The notes under the pieces are model-generated. The model had not been told where the DNA came from. It saw nothing but the letters and a program-made list of their open reading frames with translations, and did no database searches. Made by a program: the position numbers and the translations under genes. A DNA stretch of 9,114 nt from Planctomycetota bacterium (GTDB lineage: Bacteria; Planctomycetota; Phycisphaerae; UBA1845), in NCBI GenBank assembly GCA_022563055.1, contig JADFOB010000026.1:1-9114 (forward strand), given 5' to 3'. How positions within the stretch are numbered: the stretch's first letter is position 1; each line of letters starts with the position of its first letter. Positions 1,204-9,114 of this stretch are shown here, piece by piece.

Positions 1204-1231
1204 TTGACAGCTTCCGCGGGCCACCTATAAT
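1204..1231 (+). promoter_or_regulatory. Consensus sigma70-type promoter driving the nusA leader
   Basis: The -35 TTGACA (1204-1209) and -10 TATAAT (1226-1231) are both perfect and separated by 16 bases, one less than the optimum. In GC-rich sequence such a match is very unlikely by chance. Transcription should begin near 1238, about 325 bases before the nusA start codon, and a terminator lies between. It is the only strong promoter I see on the + strand, so it is the likely source of the whole operon. Confidence 0.85.
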
Positions 1232-1237
1232 GCCTCC

Positions 1238-1561
1238 CGGTGATGTGCGGCGGAGGCTGCTTCGACGCTGGGAGAGTCTGCGCCGTCACGCGGCACCATG
1301 GACCTGTTGGGATGCTTATGGTCGCTCACCATGGCCACCGGAGGTGGTTGTCGGTGAGCGCGCGGAGCTCGTAAGGATGATGAAGCCACAGGGTGGAGCT
1401 TCCAGTCGTGCGGACTGAGCCAGTCCAGCCCGATCGTGTTCGCCGGTGTTTCTCAGCGCGTCTCACAAACGGGAGTGGGACGATGCCTTAGACGCCGACG
1501 GTCAGCTTGCTGCCTTGCCGTGGTTCCGCGTGGGATGGTTGTATGCGCCCACGCTTTTTTT
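1238..1561 (+). ncRNA. Structured RNA: nusA attenuator leader or stand-alone small RNA
   Basis: This stretch of about 324 bases lies between a perfect promoter and an intrinsic terminator and has no credible coding frame. Several hairpins can be read by eye. One has an 8-bp stem CGCTCACC/GGTGAGCG (1323-1330 with 1353-1360) enclosing CCACC-GGA-GGTGG (1335-1347), extended by two G-U pairs. Another pairs GGACTG with CAGTCC (1412-1417 with 1421-1426) around a 3-base loop. A third pairs GTCTCA with TGGGAC near 1470-1491. The segment 1403-1425 offers two competing pairings for the same central GACTG. I looked for conserved parts of RNase P RNA, tmRNA, 6S and SRP RNA and found none. The natural readings are an attenuated 5' leader of nusA, where NusA, itself a stimulator of hairpin termination, could act as feedback, or a separate small RNA with read-through into nusA. 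The ends are inferred from the promoter and the T tract. Confidence 0.6.
1528..1561 (+). terminator. Intrinsic terminator immediately upstream of nusA
   Basis: A perfect 7-bp stem GCGTGGG (1528-1534) pairs with CCCACGC (1548-1554) around a 13-base loop, followed directly by seven T residues (1555-1561). The last T is four bases from the nusA ATG at 1566. Read-through or regulated antitermination is needed for the promoter at 1204 to express the operon. Confidence 0.85.
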
Positions 1562-1565
1562 GTGA

Positions 1566-3086
1566 ATGCCGATGAATACCGATCTGATTCGATTTGTCGA
1601 CGCGATCAGTCGCGACAAGAGTATCGAGAAGGAGATCGTCTTTCTCGATCTGGAAGCCGCCATGCTCTCCGCCGCGCAGAAGGCGTACGAGGAGGCGGAG
1701 GACATCCAGGTCGCCATCGACCGCGTGACGGGCGCCATCACAGCCACCGTGGACGGTGAGCCGCTCGATCTGAAAACGCTCGGACGCATCGCCGCCCAGA
1801 CTGCCAAACAGGTGATGATGCAGCGGATCCGCGAGGACGAGCGCAACTCGATCTTTGAGGAATACTCCCAGCGCGTTGGCACGGTGGTCACCGGCACGGT
1901 TGCTCGGTTCGAAGGCGGAGCGCTAACGGTCAACCTGGGCAGGGCGGAAGCGTTCCTTCCGCGGAGCGAGCAGATTCCCGGCGACGCCCACCATCCCGGT
2001 GAGCGTATCCGTGCGATGGTCCTGGACGTCCGCGAAGAACAGAACCGCGTCAAGATCGTCTTGACCCAGACGCACCCGGACTACATCCGAAAACTGTTTG
2101 AACTCGAAGTCCCCGAGGTCGCTGAGCGCATCATCGAGATTCGCGCACTTGCGCGCGAGGCGGGCTATCGAACCAAGGTCGCCGTGTCATCCATCGACAG
2201 CAAGGTGGACCCGGTCGGTGCGTGCGTCGGCGTGCGGGGCAGCCGCATCCGGAACATCGTCGACGAGCTCGGCGGTGAAAAGATCGACATCGTCCGCTGG
2301 AACGAATCGTCGCAGGTTCTTATCTCTAACTCGCTCAAACCGGCCGAGGTCAAGGAGGTCTTTCTCTGCTTTGAGCTCGGGCGAGCCACCGTGATCGTTC
2401 AGGAAGACCAGTTGTCACTCGCGATCGGCAAGCGTGGACAGAACGTCCGGCTCGGCGCGCGACTGACCGGGTGGGATATCGATATAAGCACACCTGGGGA
2501 GTACGACCGGAACATCGACGACATGCAGAAAACACTGTCGGGCATCGAAGGCGTTCAGGACGTCATGCTCGATAAGATGCTGGCGATGGGCATGGTGTCG
2601 CTTAGCGACCTCTCCGAGGTGGGTGTCGAACCGCTCGTGAAGGATCTGGAGTTGGATGAGGCGCTGGCGGCGCGAATCGTCGAGGTCGCAGCCGAAGCGG
2701 CGCCGCGTCTCGAGGCGGAGCGCCAAGCCGCCAAGAAGGCCGCCGCGGAGGCGGAGGCGGAAGCTGCCAAGAAAGCCGCCGAAGAAGCGGAAGCGGAAGC
2801 TGCTGCACAAACGGATGCGGATCCCGCCGAAGACTCCGTGGAGACCGGCGAGACGCCCTCCGATGAACCGGAGACGCCCGTTTCGAGCGATACCACGGAC
2901 AGCGATACCACGGACAGCGATTCGCCGGATGATGAATCCGGCTCGACGCCCAACTCGGTCGATTCCCAGACGGCGTCGGAAACGCCGGCCGTTCAAGACG
3001 TCCAGACACAGTCGCCGACACCCGCGGCCGACACGGATGTGTCAGCCGTTAAGACGGGGACGGTGGAGTCGAGCGATCCAACGTAG
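1566..3086 (+). CDS. nusA: Transcription elongation/termination factor NusA
   Basis: This encodes 506 residues. NusA binds RNA polymerase and nascent RNA, promotes pausing and hairpin termination, and joins antitermination complexes. Domains in order: the N-terminal RNAP-binding domain (1-102), with the family-typical opening MNTDLIRFVDAISRDKSIEK; S1 (about 103-172); KH1 with GVRGSRIRNI around 222-231; KH2 with LSLAIGKRGQNVRLGARLTG at 283-302; and a helix-hairpin-helix-like region (about 325-375). An Ala/Glu/Lys-rich segment likely to be coiled coil follows (382-413), then an acidic Ser/Thr/Asp/Pro tail (414-506) that is probably disordered. The tail makes it longer than B. subtilis NusA, which lacks one. 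Starts at 1566 and at 1572, two codons on, are equally plausible; neither has a Shine-Dalgarno, because the terminator T tract occupies that position. infB follows within 70 bases with no terminator between. rimP, the usual upstream neighbour, is missing. Confidence 0.97.
   Translation: MPMNTDLIRFVDAISRDKSIEKEIVFLDLEAAMLSAAQKAYEEAEDIQVAIDRVTGAITATVDGEPLDLKTLGRIAAQTAKQVMMQRIREDERNSIFEEYSQRVGTVVTGTVARFEGGALTVNLGRAEAFLPRSEQIPGDAHHPGERIRAMVLDVREEQNRVKIVLTQTHPDYIRKLFELEVPEVAERIIEIRALAREAGYRTKVAVSSIDSKVDPVGACVGVRGSRIRNIVDELGGEKIDIVRWNESSQVLISNSLKPAEVKEVFLCFELGRATVIVQEDQLSLAIGKRGQNVRLGARLTGWDIDISTPGEYDRNIDDMQKTLSGIEGVQDVMLDKMLAMGMVSLSDLSEVGVEPLVKDLELDEALAARIVEVAAEAAPRLEAERQAAKKAAAEAEAEAAKKAAEEAEAEAAAQTDADPAEDSVETGETPSDEPETPVSSDTTDSDTTDSDSPDDESGSTPNSVDSQTASETPAVQDVQTQSPTPAADTDVSAVKTGTVESSDPT
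2886..2915 (+). repeat. Two exact 15-base tandem repeats in the NusA tail
   Basis: AGCGATACCACGGAC occurs twice back to back (2886-2900, 2901-2915), followed by a partial third copy (AGCGATTC). It encodes SDTTD-SDTTD-SDSPD within the acidic tail. The exact DNA identity suggests a recent slippage duplication in a segment whose length is not tightly constrained. Confidence 0.85.
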
Positions 3087-3154
3087 CGGCACCGCAAGCG
3101 TACGCCTTTGGGTGGTGGTCTGGTGTGGCAGAGCGTACTGAGGGAGACTCGGTT

Positions 3155-5950
3155 TTGGTCCAGAAGATGCGCGTTCACATCCTCGCCAGGGAACTGAACG
3201 TCTCCAGCAAGGTGCTGGTCACGAAGTGTCAGGCCGAGGGCATCGAAGACATCAAGAACCACATGTCCGCGCTGAGCGCCGGGCTTGAGGCGACCGTCCG
3301 CGAGTGGTTCAGCGAAGGCGCCCACGACACAGTCGTCGAGACGGCCAAGCGGATCGATCTCAAGAAAGTCCGAGTCAAGAAGCCCAAACGCAAGACCACC
3401 ACGAAAACGGACAAGCAGGCGCAGACGGACGCCACCACCGTGACGGTCGACGCGGGGCTGGCGGTGACGGCCACGACCGCCGTCGCGGAAGCCGAGACGG
3501 CCACCGCCACCGAACCGGCGCTCGAACCGACAACGTCCGGCGTGGGGACGCTCGCCACAACAGTGCTCGAGGAACCGCCGGTTTCCCAGACGCCCGCCAC
3601 CGACGTCGTCGTCGCCGCGGAAGCGCCGACCGCCGAAGTCGCGGACGTGCTTCTGCTTGAGGAAACTCCCACGGAGACGGTCGCGGATGAGGTCGACGCC
3701 GAGGCTGCCCCGCCGGATGGGCAAGCCGGACCGCTGCCCGTGTCGAAACCACCTGAGCCCGAAAAGCCCAAGGATCCGATCCAACCGGCCGGTCCGTTGC
3801 ACGTTCCCACGCCTGCCAAACTCAAAGGACCGCGTGTTGTCCGCTATGAACCGCTGGAGTCGGACTCGCTGCCGACCCGTCGGGGTCCACCGCCCCCGAG
3901 GCGTCCCGGCGGCCCGGACACTCCGCAACCGGCCGGTCCGATGAGGCCGGCTCCTGCGGGACCGGGCGAGAAAGGCACGCAACGGCGCGGACGAGGCAGC
4001 ATGCGCCGTGCAGCCGGCAGGGTCCGTCAACCGGGTGCGGAATCCACGGGTTGGCGCGATCGGGACTTGGCCGAGCGCCAGGAGCGCCTCGCCGGCGCGA
4101 CCGGTCGGCGAATCCATCGTCGTCGTTCCTTCCAGCAAGCTGGCGCGGGCGGGGCGGCGGTGGCACCGGCTGGACCCAAGACGGAGGCCACCGTTCACGA
4201 ACCGATTCAGATGAAGGAGTTCTGCTCATCCACCGGGCTCAGCTTTATTCAGCTCTTCAAGATTCTGCGGGATGAGCACAATCTGGTCGCCAACATCAAC
4301 ATGATCCTGCCGGCGGAGACGGCTGAGTTGCTCGCGCTGCACTTCGGTATCGAGCTGACGGTCATTGAAGCCAAGACCAAGCTCGACGAAATCACCGAGG
4401 AGTTCGCCGCGCGCGAGCGCAAAAACCTTGAGCCCAGAACGCCCGTGGTCACCATGCTCGGGCATGTGGATCACGGCAAGACGAGCCTCCTTGACGCGAT
4501 CCGAAGCACACGCGTCGCGGCACGTGAGGATGGCGGGATCACACAGCATATCGGTGCGCACTATGTTGTCACCGAACATGGGACGGTCACCTTCCTTGAC
4601 ACGCCGGGGCACGCGGCGTTTACGGCCATGCGCGCCCGCGGCGCGCAGGTGACGGACGTGGTCGTACTCGTCATAGCCGCGGATGACGGCGTCATGCCGC
4701 AGACGATCGAAGCCATCAATCACGCCAAAGCCGCCGAGGTCGCCGTGGTCGTAGCGCTCAACAAGATTGATCTGGGCGATCAGAACAAGCTCAAGATATA
4801 CGGACAGCTCGCGGAGCACGGCTTGACGCCGAGCGGTGATTGGGGTGGGGAAATCGACGTGATCGAGACATCGGCCACGACGGGCACCGGCATCCCGGAA
4901 CTCATCGAGCACCTTTCGGATCTCAGCGCCCTGCTCGAGCTGAAAGCGGATCCGACGCTACCGGCTCAGGGCGCGGTCATCGAGGCGGAGACCAAGAGCG
5001 GTGTCGGCGCCGTCGTACGGGTGCTGGTGCGCGAGGGGACTTTACGTGTCGGGTCGTTCGTCGTCTGTGGTAACGCCAGCGGAAAGGTACGGGCGCTGCA
5101 CGACGATCGGGGCCAGCGGATTACGGAGGCCGGCCCTTCCGTTCCCGTGGAAGTCTGGGGTCTGGATGACGTTCCCATGGCGGGAGATGCGCTCTTTGAG
5201 GTCTCGAGCCTGCAGCGAGCGAAAGAGGTGGCGAGCGAAACCAAGCACCGTCGAATCCAGCAAGGGCGTCTCCAGTCTCGCAAGGTTAGAACACTCGAAG
5301 AGATGCTCAAGCAGCGAGATTCCCAGGAGACGCCGGAACTCAACCTCATCATCAAGGCCGACGTCGACGGCAGCGTCACCGCCCTGAAACAGATCCTTTC
5401 GGAGATCCCCTCCGACGAGGTTCGTCTAACCGTGCGCCACGCCGGTGTCGGCGCGGTCAACGACAGCGACGTATTGCTCGCCGAGGCCTGCAAGGGAATC
5501 GTCGTCGCGTTTCGAGTCGAGGCTTCGGTCGGAGCCCGCCGCCTCGCCGAGCAGCACGGCGTCGACATCCGACCCTATCGTGTCATCTACAACGTCGCCG
5601 ATGACGTCAAGAAAGCGCTCGAGGGGTTGCTGGCGCCCGAGTTGCGACCCGAGACGCGCGGCGTGGCGGAGGTCCGACAGGTATTCCATCTCAGTCGGGG
5701 CAAGGGCGTGGTAGCCGGTTCATTCATTTCCGAAGGGACGTTGAACCGAAACCATCTCGCCAAGGTGATCCGCGACGGTGTCGTCGTGCGGGAGGGTTGC
5801 GAGTTTGCCTCGATCAGACGCTTCAAGGACGACGTCCGCGAGGTGCGTAGCGGTATGGAGTGCGGCATCCGGATCGAAGGCTTTGACGACATCCACGTCG
5901 GTGATATCATCGAAGCCTACGAGATTCTCAAGATCGCCAGGACGTTGTAG
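3155..5950 (+). CDS. infB: Translation initiation factor IF-2
   Basis: IF2 is the GTPase that brings fMet-tRNA to the 30S subunit and drives 50S joining. From a TTG at 3155 it is 931 residues. An N-terminal IF2N helix bundle begins [17 protein letters not shown] (from residue 5). A long Ala/Thr/Val-rich then Pro/Arg-rich linker follows (about 60-340), then a second IF2N-like segment (350-400). The GTPase domain shows G1 GHVDHGKT (436-443), switch [10 protein letters not shown]3 DTPGH (482-486), G4 NKID (536-539) and G5 SAT (573-575). Domains II, III and the fMet-tRNA-binding C-terminal domain are complete. For the start, the frame opens at GTG 3125, but GAGGGAG (3140-3146) sits 8 bases before TTG 3155, and family homology begins at ATG 3167; the SD decides for TTG, with GTG 3125 possible. 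Everything needed for activity is present. Confidence 0.97.
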
Positions 5951-5997: not shown

Positions 5998-7146
5998 ATG
6001 ATCGAATTCAAGGCGGAATGCGGCCATACCGTTCGGGCAAAAGACGAGAATGCCGGCGGTGTCGTTCGCTGTTCCTACTGCGGTGTCGAAGCGCCCGTCC
6101 CGAACGACGGAGCCGATGACCTGGACTTTCTGTTCAGGGACATCGATCAGGCAGACGAAGCGGGTGCGCCGGCGCGGCGGGGGAAACGTAAGCGAGGTCG
6201 AGGTCTGTTCTCGCGGAAACGGCGAGCGAGACCTCTGGATCCGTTCGCGGTCATCCTGAAACTTTGTTACGCCGCCCTGCTAATCTCGGTCATCATCGTT
6301 GTCGGACAAAAGTTCGTACGTCCGTGGTTCGAGGAAGACGGGCTCGCTCGCCGCATCACGAAAGTCCGTGAGCAGCGGGGCTCCACGGATCGAAGAGCGG
6401 CGAAAAAAGACCGTTCGAGAGAGGCGCGTCCCGGATTGGTCGATCGCGACAAGCTCAAGGGACTTTATGTGAGTTCCACGCCGCCCGGAGCGACGGGCTT
6501 CTACCTGGATGCCTCTCGCGCACCCGATGTGGGGCGCATCCAGTCGGTCAAAGGATGTGTGCAGTTTGATGTCGGCTCCCCTTCCGGGGCCTCGCGTGCT
6601 TCGGATGGAACGTTTGTCGTCGAGGTCGTTTTCCCACTTAATGACCCGCGCTTGAAGGATTACCGGGGGTACCGGCCGTTTCGTCGCTCGATCGCACAGG
6701 GCAACAAGGAAGATCGTAAGAGATTGGTGAATCGCTACTTCCTCCCTGATGGAGCAGCCGACGTATTCATCGACGAGACGGACGATCAGATCTACATCGT
6801 CCGGCAGTATCGCAACGTAACCGTGCGCAGCGGGGTCACTCGCGGTGTGCAGGCGCTGTTTTTGCCGAGGATTCCAAGGGCGGATGGTCAGGCGTTCTCG
6901 ATCGCGGAGCTCATTGCCGCCGACTACATTCCGCCCGGCGAAGCGTTCACCTTCGACGAGGTGAACGTCCGGGATGAGTTGGATTACTATGGTGTGACGA
7001 CGGCCGATCAGCCCTTTGTCCTCCAGGCGCTGTACCGCATTGGGGTCATCCCCTATTACGTCGAAGCCGAAAAGCAGATGCGTCTTTTAAGGATTGGGAT
7101 TCACAAGGGCCGGTTCACCGCGAAGATTATTCGCGAAGCGAGTTGA
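5998..7146 (+). CDS. Zinc-ribbon, single-pass membrane protein of unknown function
   Basis: This encodes 382 residues and I do not recognise the family. The N-terminus has a short zinc-ribbon-like pattern with Cys8, His10, Cys25 and Cys28 (ending CSYC). An acidic segment (37-54) and a very basic segment (60-78, rich in RKR) follow, then one membrane helix (about 83-102, FAVILKLCYAALLISVIIVV). The basic flank predicts that the zinc ribbon is cytoplasmic and that the large C-terminal part (from about 108) lies outside the cytoplasm. That part has a charged stretch (110-145), then a mixed alpha/beta domain with aromatic-rich motifs such as YRGYRPF and RQYRNV. It begins 47 bases after infB with only a weak GGCGGGACGG-like ribosome site, and its TGA overlaps the next gene's ATG, implying translational coupling. 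Zinc ribbon plus one helix is a common planctomycete architecture as far as I recall. Its position inside a translation operon is the only functional clue. Confidence 0.8.
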   Translation: MIEFKAECGHTVRAKDENAGGVVRCSYCGVEAPVPNDGADDLDFLFRDIDQADEAGAPARRGKRKRGRGLFSRKRRARPLDPFAVILKLCYAALLISVIIVVGQKFVRPWFEEDGLARRITKVREQRGSTDRRAAKKDRSREARPGLVDRDKLKGLYVSSTPPGATGFYLDASRAPDVGRIQSVKGCVQFDVGSPSGASRASDGTFVVEVVFPLNDPRLKDYRGYRPFRRSIAQGNKEDRKRLVNRYFLPDGAADVFIDETDDQIYIVRQYRNVTVRSGVTRGVQALFLPRIPRADGQAFSIAELIAADYIPPGEAFTFDEVNVRDELDYYGVTTADQPFVLQALYRIGVIPYYVEAEKQMRLLRIGIHKGRFTAKIIREAS

Positions 7147-7427
7147 TGATCGTTGGAATCTTGACCATCGAATTGGCGCTGTTTGACGCGCAATCGCTCA
7201 AGGATAAGCGGCGTGTCATTCAGAGCCTCAAGAAAAGGCTGCACAACCGATTCAACGTGTCCGTGGCGGAGGTCGCGTACGGTAATGATGCCAAGCGGTG
7301 CCGCCTGGGTATTGCCACGGTCTCGAACGAAACGAGAAACGTGCATTCCCTGTTGGACAAAGTCGTCGAGTTGGTACGGCACAATGGCGGCCTATCGCTG
7401 ATCGACTACAACCGAGAGTTGCTTTGA
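7146..7427 (+). CDS. ylxP: DUF503 / YlxP-like protein
   Basis: This encodes 93 residues, the usual size of the DUF503 family. The N-terminus MIVGILTIELALFDAQSLKD followed by KRRVIQSLKKRLHNRFNVSV is the family signature (a beta strand, SLKxKRRVIxSLKxRL helix, then xFNVSVAEV). The downstream segment (AKRCRLGIATVSNE) and the C-terminal VDKV-like helix also fit. Known members adopt a small ferredoxin-like fold with no settled function. In Bacillus ylxP sits between infB and rbfA, the same order as here, so synteny supports the call and suggests a ribosome- or RNA-linked job. The ATG at 7146 is chosen because it overlaps the preceding TGA (TGATG); the in-frame TTG at 7143 is less likely. Translation probably depends on the upstream gene. 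Confidence 0.9.
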   Translation: MIVGILTIELALFDAQSLKDKRRVIQSLKKRLHNRFNVSVAEVAYGNDAKRCRLGIATVSNETRNVHSLLDKVVELVRHNGGLSLIDYNRELL

Positions 7428-7530: not shown

Positions 7531-7983
7531 ATGCGACCGTTTCGCAAGGAGAAGGTAGCAAGCCTCGTACGCGACATCGTCGGCGAGGCCCTCGTCCATC
7601 GACTGCACGACCCGCGACTGGCCACACTGACTACGATCACGCGGGTCGAGATGACCCGTGATCTTCAGATCGCCAGGATTTATCTCATGGTGCCCGGTGG
7701 CGAAACGGTCGAACGAAAGACAATGGCGGCGATCAAGAGCGCCACCGGCTATCTCCAACGCATGGTGGGTAGCGTGCTCTCACTGAGGAACTGTCCGGAG
7801 TTGCGGTTTGAGATCGACGAGGCCGGCAAGTTTGCGCAAAAAACCCTGGGCCTGATTGAAGAGAACCGCCGACAGATGGAGGCCAAACAGGCCCAAAGGG
7901 ACGCGACGGAACCAGTGCTCGACGAGGAGCCCCACATGGGCGAGTCTGACGACTCATCAACGGAAATAGTGGATGGAGCGTAA
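7531..7983 (+). CDS. rbfA: 30S ribosome-binding factor RbfA
   Basis: This encodes 150 residues. RbfA binds immature 30S subunits, acts in late 16S rRNA 5'-end processing, and matters most in the cold. It is a single type II KH domain. Visible here are the N-terminal helix with KVASLVRDIVGEAL, the strand ITRVEMTRDLQIARIYLMVP, the helix with the family's AxG kink (Ala71-Thr72-Gly73, in KSATGYLQRMVG), and the last strand ELRFEID followed by a helix ending near residue 117. The final 33 residues are an acidic, probably disordered extension beyond the usual RbfA length. The start is well supported: AGGA at 7520-7523 lies 7 bases from the ATG. A 103-base gap separates it from ylxP, with only weak inverted repeats and no T tract, so read-through is expected. 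The downstream gene follows after 3 bases. Confidence 0.92.
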   Translation: MRPFRKEKVASLVRDIVGEALVHRLHDPRLATLTTITRVEMTRDLQIARIYLMVPGGETVERKTMAAIKSATGYLQRMVGSVLSLRNCPELRFEIDEAGKFAQKTLGLIEENRRQMEAKQAQRDATEPVLDEEPHMGESDDSSTEIVDGA

Positions 7984-8785: not shown

Positions 8786-9114
8786 ATGAACCGCTCTAGC
8801 ACCTCGACGCGGCTCAAACGATTGGTGCTGCTGTTGCGTGCCACTGCTTTTGAGCAGTGCTCCTCGTACGACCACCACGGTACCGCCCGGCACTGCTCAA
8901 GAGCAGTGGCACGCCGAGAGCGGCCATGGTTCCTGCTGATCGCGTTGGCGCTGGTTTCCGGCTGCGCGGTCCCGCCGGGCGCCGGTGACGGTGGCGATCA
9001 TGGCGCGAGCGCATCGCCGTTGCCGGGCGTGGATCCCGAGCGAGCCTACCTTGCGCTTTCCGAGATCGAACCGCCTGTGGAACCGCCGCGAACATCGGCG
9101 ACGCAAGGCGAGCC
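8786..9114 (+). CDS. Lipoprotein of unknown function, C-terminus outside window, repeat pair within its N-terminus
   Basis: An open frame continues to the window end (109 codons from ATG 8786). A GGGGA site at 8777-8781 precedes that ATG by four bases. The opening MNRSSTSTRLKRLVLLL looks like the beginning of a signal peptide. About 26 odd residues encoded by an inverted repeat pair (8836-8914) come next, then RERPWFLLIALALVSGC, a textbook lipoprotein signal with lipobox VSG-C (Cys60). A Pro/Gly/Asp/Ala linker (PPGAGDGGDHGASAS) follows, similar in style to the linker of the lipoprotein at 304-837. A GTG at 8906 would give a normal short lipoprotein signal (MARRERPW...), but it lies inside the repeat and lacks a good ribosome site. 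ATG 8717, also in frame, has no ribosome site. The protein is very likely a lipoprotein; which start is used is open. Function unknown. Confidence 0.68.
   Translation, partial: MNRSSTSTRLKRLVLLLRATAFEQCSSYDHHGTARHCSRAVARRERPWFLLIALALVSGCAVPPGAGDGGDHGASASPLPGVDPERAYLALSEIEPPVEPPRTSATQGE
8836..8914. repeat. Inverted pair of 25-base palindromic repeats
   Basis: Units at 8836-8860 and 8890-8914 are reverse complements at 24 of 25 positions, separated by 29 bases. Each unit has its own dyad (CACTGCT, 4 bases, AGCAGTG), so each forms a hairpin and the pair forms a much longer one. The sequence is unrelated to the pair at 1074-1143 but has the same architecture. It lies within the open frame of the lipoprotein starting at 8786 and is read through without a stop. 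Confidence 0.88.

Follow-up and report, generated by a model that had tools for sequence, protein, structure and literature searches.

What does the RNA between the promoter and the terminator that precede nusA do, and which gene does it serve? In the stretch of DNA analyzed here (the window; 9,114 nucleotides) a sigma-70-type promoter and a terminator hairpin stand before nusA and infB (Table), an arrangement that the initial annotation had read as a possible NusA-sensing attenuator or, alternatively, as a new small RNA. We propose that the nusA-infB leader may act as a transcription attenuator in which a ribosome confined to a start-stop site serves as the sensor, a reading to which we give an even chance.

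The window, whose NusA neighbors point to an uncultured planctomycete, was compared with 80 nusA loci (L001-L080; many of their records are labelled Phycisphaerae), the best-scoring of 571 found from a NusA alignment, giving 81 loci with the window. From the class to which L005 belongs, 150 genomes were drawn evenly; 146 of them had nusA, and 140 leaders from this draw were analyzed, with G004 (= L005) left out together with G122, G144, G121, G127 and G156 (contig edge, partial or unsuitable match). Of these leaders 26 duplicate members of L001-L080 and 114 are new. A wider phylum sample comprised 40 leaders of 114 genomes with nusA; these were the best-scoring outside the first class draw, and not random.

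Promoter, terminator and gene order

Table. Features of the window, in the order in which they occur.
Feature	Position	Strand	Basis or remark
Sigma-70-type promoter	1204..1231	+	TTGACA 1204-1209, 16-nt spacer, TATAAT 1226-1231; 12/12 matches
Putative transcription start	~1238	+	inferred
nusA leader RNA, ~324 nt	1238..1561	+	span from promoter to U-tract; 3' end at terminator of the putative attenuator
Candidate antiterminator strand	1360..1368	+	partner 1523-1531 (5' arm of terminator plus upstream flank), P ~0.56
Shine-Dalgarno sequence GGGAG of mini-ORF	1471..1475	+	7 nt 5' of ATG
Minimal ORF ATG CCT TAG (Met-Pro-stop)	1483..1491	+	window sequence and comparison with relatives
Terminator hairpin GCGTGGG...CCCACGC	1528..1554	+	7 perfect pairs
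U-tract of terminator, T7	1555..1561	+	sequence
nusA	1572..3086	+	alternative in-frame ATG at 1566
infB, translation initiation factor IF2	3125..5950	+	next gene after nusA
Gene for 382-aa protein	5998-7143		no Pfam match; between infB and DUF503 gene
DUF503 protein gene	7143..7427	+	
rbfA, ribosome-binding factor A	7531..7983	+	

The perfect TTGACA/TATAAT promoter of the initial annotation was recovered as the sole perfect copy (16-nt spacer) in the window, and none was found in 200 dinucleotide shuffles of the window. At the equivalent position a promoter with 10 to 12 of 12 matches was seen in L001-L007, which form a clade with the window (support 1.0), and in L016. Promoter-like sites 5' of the mini-ORF described below scored at least 10/12 in 28 of 81 mini-ORF leaders (1.75 in shuffles) and at least 11/12 in 19 of 81 (0.15 in shuffles); no site of at least 10/12 was seen in the other 53 of the 81 mini-ORF leaders. 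Between terminator and nusA, where 64 of these 81 leaders have 40 nt or more, no promoter-like site of at least 9/12 was detected in any of the 64 (shuffles 1.4); the gap was shorter than 45 nt in 19/81 leaders, the window among them. Promoters 5' of the mini-ORF, together with none found between terminator and nusA, argue that the leader belongs to nusA. A frame with an ABC-ATPase-like ending (FEPG...) ends 5' of the mini-ORF in 26 relatives, and in L012, the one relative checked, Pfam identified it as an ABC transporter ATPase. The presence of promoters upstream in the leaders argues that the mini-ORF element is not merely the tail of the gene that precedes it.

The 7-bp stem and the seven Ts claimed for the terminator were also present, and the full hairpin, once made, is part of the minimum-energy fold of the window; a pattern scan restricted to loops of 3-8 bases did not list it. 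The hairpin had been placed four bases before a nusA ATG at 1566. The likelier start is the ATG at 1572, 10 nt after the U-tract, since the database copy of the window's NusA has 504 aa and the consensus of the relatives begins with MN. Among the first 20 loci, hairpins of the GTGG...CC(C/A) type with at least five Ts preceded nusA in 19, the odd one being L011 with four Ts after the hairpin. Under a looser rule, a hairpin followed by five or more Ts was found 20-140 nt downstream in 81 of 100 mini-ORF leaders, and a terminator was also found in 62 of 95 leaders without mini-ORF, so that the terminator does not depend on the mini-ORF. The distance from terminator to gene varied from 10 to 217 nt. 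Stems of GGG..CCC with gCCC occurred in 34 of the 81 mini-ORF leaders and GTGGAAA-type stems in 19; the window stem is GGG(a)...gCCC. Seven leaders in which no mini-ORF was found (L028, L033, L035, L036, L047, L048, L050) had a GGGTCGC-type hairpin before a T-run, perhaps a different attenuator design.

The description of the leader as hairpin-rich fared less well, its fold stability being z = -1.63 with 5 of 100 shuffles equally stable. Similarity to the window leader was confined to the last ~100 nt, clear in L005 and L006 and weak in L002, L003 and L007, and no similarity to its 5' two thirds was detectable in the leaders of the 80 loci.

A strong promoter and terminator of its own would also suit an independent small RNA gene, nusA then being transcribed from another site. 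This reading appears very improbable, given that the 64 leaders with enough space between terminator and nusA showed no promoter-like site there (the window leaves <45 nt), that the whole window gave no Rfam match at gathering score, and that most of the leader lacks detectable similarity in the 80 loci; the small RNA of the initial annotation is thus not favored, and the terminated leader may well accumulate as RNA. Rfam also gave no match in 20 relatives, nor at E <= 2 in seven relatives, and neither tRNA nor tmRNA was found in the window or in 20 relatives. RNase P, SRP RNA and 6S RNA were dropped on these negatives, and a match to RsmV at 1150-1620 (E <= 10) was attributed to chance (10.9 bits vs a cut-off of 100). 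No plasmid record was similar to the window.

Downstream of the operon genes, an inverted repeat with 25-nt arms (8836-8860 and 8890-8914, 96% complementary, 29 nt apart) occupies 8836-8914, just 5' of an ORF with a lipobox-like LVSGC, and has the look of a repeat or mobile element.

A start-stop ORF in the leader

Placed side by side, the leaders exhibited an element that the initial annotation did not contain: a Shine-Dalgarno sequence, an ATG, few codons at most and a stop, all 5' of the terminator (in the window GGGAGTGGGACG-ATG-CCT-TAG). Defined as an ATG, at most one codon and a stop, with a Shine-Dalgarno core 5-9 nt before the ATG, this mini-ORF was present in 40 of the 81 leaders, window included, as compared with a mean of 1.4 and a maximum of 5 in shuffles. 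On the reverse strand it was found in 0/81 leaders, and elsewhere in the same loci at 18 matches per 1.03 million strand-bases. The even class draw gave 46 of 140 leaders vs 3.4 in shuffles (maximum 10), and 40 of the 114 leaders new to the set.

In a test independent of the stop, ATGs preceded by a Shine-Dalgarno sequence were taken first and the codons to the stop then counted. In 195 leaders, 92 of 128 such ATGs met a stop after 0-2 codons (26, 50 and 16 after 0, 1 and 2 codons, respectively), against 18 of 345 control ATGs preceded by a Shine-Dalgarno sequence elsewhere in the loci. A repeat with slightly different borders gave 92/132 short sites (Fisher 1.7e-47, relatedness ignored), and 85/121 were short when leader sites in long open frames were dropped (Fisher 1.1e-45, control unfiltered and relatedness ignored). 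As the loci are related, the t and Fisher values reported here overstate independence. Under the peptide-count rule an ATG mini-ORF was missing in 101 of the 195 leaders.

Seven short sites lie within a long open frame (L193, L195, L211, L214, L217, L218, L222), where the motif may belong to the upstream gene's coding sequence. By eye, GGAGCCTG(A/C)GCATGTAG in L214, L217, L218, L220, L221 and L222 is the apparent end of the upstream gene's frame; four of these six loci (L214, L217, L218, L222) are in a long open frame, where the start-stop may be a coding by-product. In the wider phylum a start-stop preceded by a Shine-Dalgarno sequence was seen in 5 of 40 leaders (L223, L224, L227, L229, L233), all ATG-TAG or ATG-TAA, and the sites of L223 and L224 are identical.

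Searched in the 150 genomes, GGAG-N7-ATGCGNTAR gave 78 matches vs ~112 for the reversed control, three of the 78 lying just 5' of nusA by coordinates, and it is not a motif dispersed genome-wide. The sequence GGAGGCNGNTGATGTAG gave four matches vs seven for the reversed control, and three of the four are just 5' of nusA. The sole match not before nusA is in G036 (contig C215:7163-7179), for which chance is the simplest reading because the reversed control gave seven.

The encoded peptides were M-stop (26), MR-stop (19), MT-stop (8), MS-stop (6) and others. Arg CGN was frequent as second codon, with CGC, CGT, CGA and CGG all seen. No regulatory codons for an amino acid were found among the 0-2 sense codons after the AUG, which are of varied kinds, and the variation of the codon after ATG argues against amino-acid sensing. 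In the 81 leaders with mini-ORF plus terminator, the distance from ATG to hairpin was 41-54 nt in 41, 62-82 nt in 28 and other in 12.

On a NusA tree of the 81 loci, 50 were carriers of the mini-ORF by the rule of the tree script, and parsimony required at least 9 changes for presence, 17 for stop type, 25 for sense codons and 4 for length. The clade of the window (support 0.92) consists of carriers throughout (17/17), and in it the stops alternate among TAA, TAG and TGA. The 81 leaders with mini-ORF plus terminator fell into 50 clusters by shared 6-mers. Judged from the sequences, such turnover is to be expected under selection on start and stop codons, for which the comparative evidence is strong, with the mini-ORF as a candidate for a translated leader ORF.

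Were the ATG-stop motif instead an untranslated RNA-structure motif, palindromic sites such as that of L005 and L006 (GCGCGATGCGC) would be in keeping with it. Against this, ATG and stop persist through repeated changes of stop type and sense codons, and all four Arg CGN codons are used, which renders a pure structure motif extremely improbable. The palindrome at the mini-ORF start of L005 and L006, AGCGCGATGCGCT, could fold a tiny hairpin over the start codon.

Predicted pairing of the terminator arm with upstream RNA

An antiterminator would require that the 5' arm of the terminator has an alternative partner upstream. The clearest case was a set of 18 leaders, denoted GTGGAAAC-type (L062 and L068 are labelled Sedimentisphaerales), in which the terminator 5' arm pairs along its full length with a strand farther upstream, GUUUCYGCUUCA. 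In their alignment 205 of 214 cells were paired, as compared with 86-121 of 190-214 in slid controls, the pairing having been derived from L060, one of the 18, which favors the score. Since the two structures share the terminator 5' arm, terminator and antiterminator are mutually exclusive in these relatives. The conservation of the stems upstream of nusA, for which the initial annotation had proposed a covariance search, was assessed by alignment: the terminator is conserved, and in the GTGGAAAC-type, two-sided changes were seen at two pairs just outside the terminator stem.

Base-pair probabilities were computed on transcripts cut at the loop, with the upstream RNA shuffled 12 times per locus; 8 of the 81 loci were left out, their mini-ORF being located at or close to where an upstream reading frame ends. 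Pairing of the arm with RNA 5' of the mini-ORF was 0.86 vs 0.34 shuffled in the GTGGAAAC-type (18/18 above shuffles), and 0.58 vs 0.44 in the 55 other leaders, window included (37/55, t = 4.4), this group comprising all leaders outside the GTGGAAAC-type set with any hairpin type. Pairing of the arm with the mini-ORF zone (0.00 and 0.04 for GTGGAAAC-type and others, respectively) and with the spacer (0.01 and 0.07) was rare. As the arm pairs with RNA 5' of the mini-ORF, the mini-ORF would lie inside the antiterminator loop.

Fourteen region tests (seven comparisons in two groups, and thus multiple testing on related sequences) gave, for the terminator arm vs upstream RNA, t = -2.9 and -4.8 in the larger group and -4.7 and -2.2 in the GTGGAAAC-type, and, for upstream RNA vs spacer, t = -3.7 in the GTGGAAAC-type group; sequestration of the Shine-Dalgarno sequence by the spacer was marginal (t = -2.1). 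Duplex energies compared with shuffles in 39 loci gave a weak signal (mean z -0.62, 4/39 below -2). Pairing with the end of the upstream ABC-ATPase gene was not locus-specific in 26 loci, the energy being -21.7 for own and -21.0 for permuted pairs (best of 300 permutations -22.8, not significant). For the window, pairing of the arm upstream of the mini-ORF was 0.73 vs 0.47 shuffled, with the candidate strand in the Table as likeliest partner and a competing partner near 1285-1300; its duplex-energy test was not significant (z +0.51).

An attenuator before nusA, as envisaged in the initial annotation, is therefore well supported by comparison of the loci: the terminator is conserved, sigma-70-type promoters lie upstream with none found between terminator and nusA, upstream RNA is complementary to the arm, and the gene order and the conserved start and stop codons accompany them.

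The mini-ORF might simply provide a ribosome site that shields the leader RNA from nucleases or Rho, with the terminator uncontrolled. For the two-codon minigene of the txe leader, which acts in cis, the authors favor protection of mRNA from an endonuclease in the part of their report available (PMC8708949), and the Rho version is our own extrapolation. One ribosome site would suffice for protection, consistent with a free second codon. Protection does not account for the preferred distances that the mini-ORF keeps to the terminator or for its position inside the antiterminator loop. Furthermore, txe, according to the available part of the report, needs the frame and the distance to the next gene (PMC8708949), whereas here the terminator-to-nusA distance is free (10-217 nt), and we regard protection as quite unlikely.

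A second alternative is feedback of the rimP-leader kind, in which NusA stimulates the terminator of its own leader and the mini-ORF is a minor accessory. Leader terminators with GGGc...gCCC are widespread before rimP-nusA-infB, and NusA was proposed in 2010 as the best candidate for the effector of this attenuator (PMC2965389). NusA-stimulated leader termination is also reported to control nusA itself in B. subtilis, as far as the available part of that report goes (PMC12288461), and the NusA-feedback idea for nusA leaders is already published and not new. The GGG...gCCC stem of the window, the 34/81 mini-ORF leaders with gCCC, terminators in leaders that lack a mini-ORF, and terminator-to-gene distances akin to the published 4-130 (PMC2965389) all agree with it. 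The rimP model (RF01770) of Rfam did not match in the window and matched weakly in 2 of 10 relatives, with 0/10 relatives' genomes over cut-off, which says little because, of 14 control genomes, just one exceeded the cut-off. NusA feedback leaves the conservation of the start-stop ORF and the upstream complementarity unexplained, and on its own it seems unlikely.

A possible sensor of translation initiation and related systems

Attenuation read by a ribosome at the start-stop site could proceed as follows. RNA polymerase would begin near 1238. The terminator 5' arm would pair either with its own 3' arm, stopping transcription, or with the far-upstream RNA, giving antitermination. Between the two alternative strands lies the mini-ORF with its good Shine-Dalgarno sequence, AUG, one codon (0-2 in relatives) and stop, where a ribosome would initiate, terminate and depart from one spot with no onward movement. 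A ribosome so confined would report by its occupancy on initiation (IF2, initiator tRNA, free 30S) and termination, and not on amino-acid supply. An occupied mini-ORF would hinder the enclosing antiterminator and favor the terminator, thereby lowering nusA-infB, so that plentiful IF2 would reduce expression of the operon that encodes it. This hairpin may in addition respond to NusA.

We infer that ribosomes occupy the mini-ORF in cells, that this affects termination and that IF2 is the signal; since the operon encodes IF2, the simplest interpretation is a feedback on the capacity to initiate. When a ribosome footprint (-20 to +14) was forced open, availability of the arm rose in 13/81 leaders and fell in 6/81 (by >0.05), with a mean effect of +0.012 vs +0.036 for control footprints, in a simulation that included neither kinetics nor sterics. 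As this gave no consistent effect, the sign of the regulation is one that we infer.

How the cellular levels of IF2 and NusA are set is understood only in part. IF3 is controlled through an odd start codon, and RF2 through a stop codon. We tentatively suggest that the start-stop ORF gauges how well ribosomes can initiate and be released, with feedback on nusA and on infB (IF2); by analogy, it could possibly be viewed as a transcriptional counterpart of the IF3 and RF2 controls, a parallel we draw with equal reserve. If true, the leader would sense translation initiation as such, independently of the supply of amino acids, and a defined regulatory role would fall to minigenes of one to three codons. 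As ORFs so short are rarely annotated, similar elements may be common and have been missed.

In eukaryotes, minimal uORFs (AUG-stop, as in plant boron genes) also have a start followed at once by a stop, where the ribosome is held. In contrast to the attenuator proposed here, these act with scanning ribosomes on translation and mRNA decay, without transcription attenuation. The trp attenuator is ribosome-mediated, with a leader ORF between alternative strands. The available part of the report on the ilvB1 attenuator (PMC13236596) likewise describes a leader ORF between antiterminator and terminator strands. The present leaders differ from both in having an ORF of one to three codons including the AUG, no regulatory codon and, as we propose, a fixed ribosome.

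The two-codon minigene of axe-txe (PMC8708949) and the start-stop sites of Campylobacter (PMC11955535) share the AUG, 0-2 codons and stop. In the available parts of these reports their effect, where one is given, is on translation or RNA stability, and none is linked to a terminator or described as conserved ahead of nusA.

Similar in gene context is the rimP-leader (PMC2965389), with the same operon, a terminator shortly 5' of the first gene, a variable terminator-gene distance and, in common with the window, a GGG...gCCC stem. Here, on the other hand, rimP is not directly 5' of nusA, and the leader is long, with a start-stop ORF and upstream antiterminator pairing; the available part of that report contains no mention of an ORF in the leader and limits antiterminators to several Gammaproteobacteria. 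In B. subtilis an intrinsic leader terminator also controls transcription into nusA, and a mini-ORF is not mentioned in the available part of that report (PMC12288461). Leader terminators, NusA as a candidate effector and minigenes are each known; in the literature searched, which included few subscription papers, nothing was found that joins them at nusA or describes a start-stop ORF in the leader of nusA or rimP.
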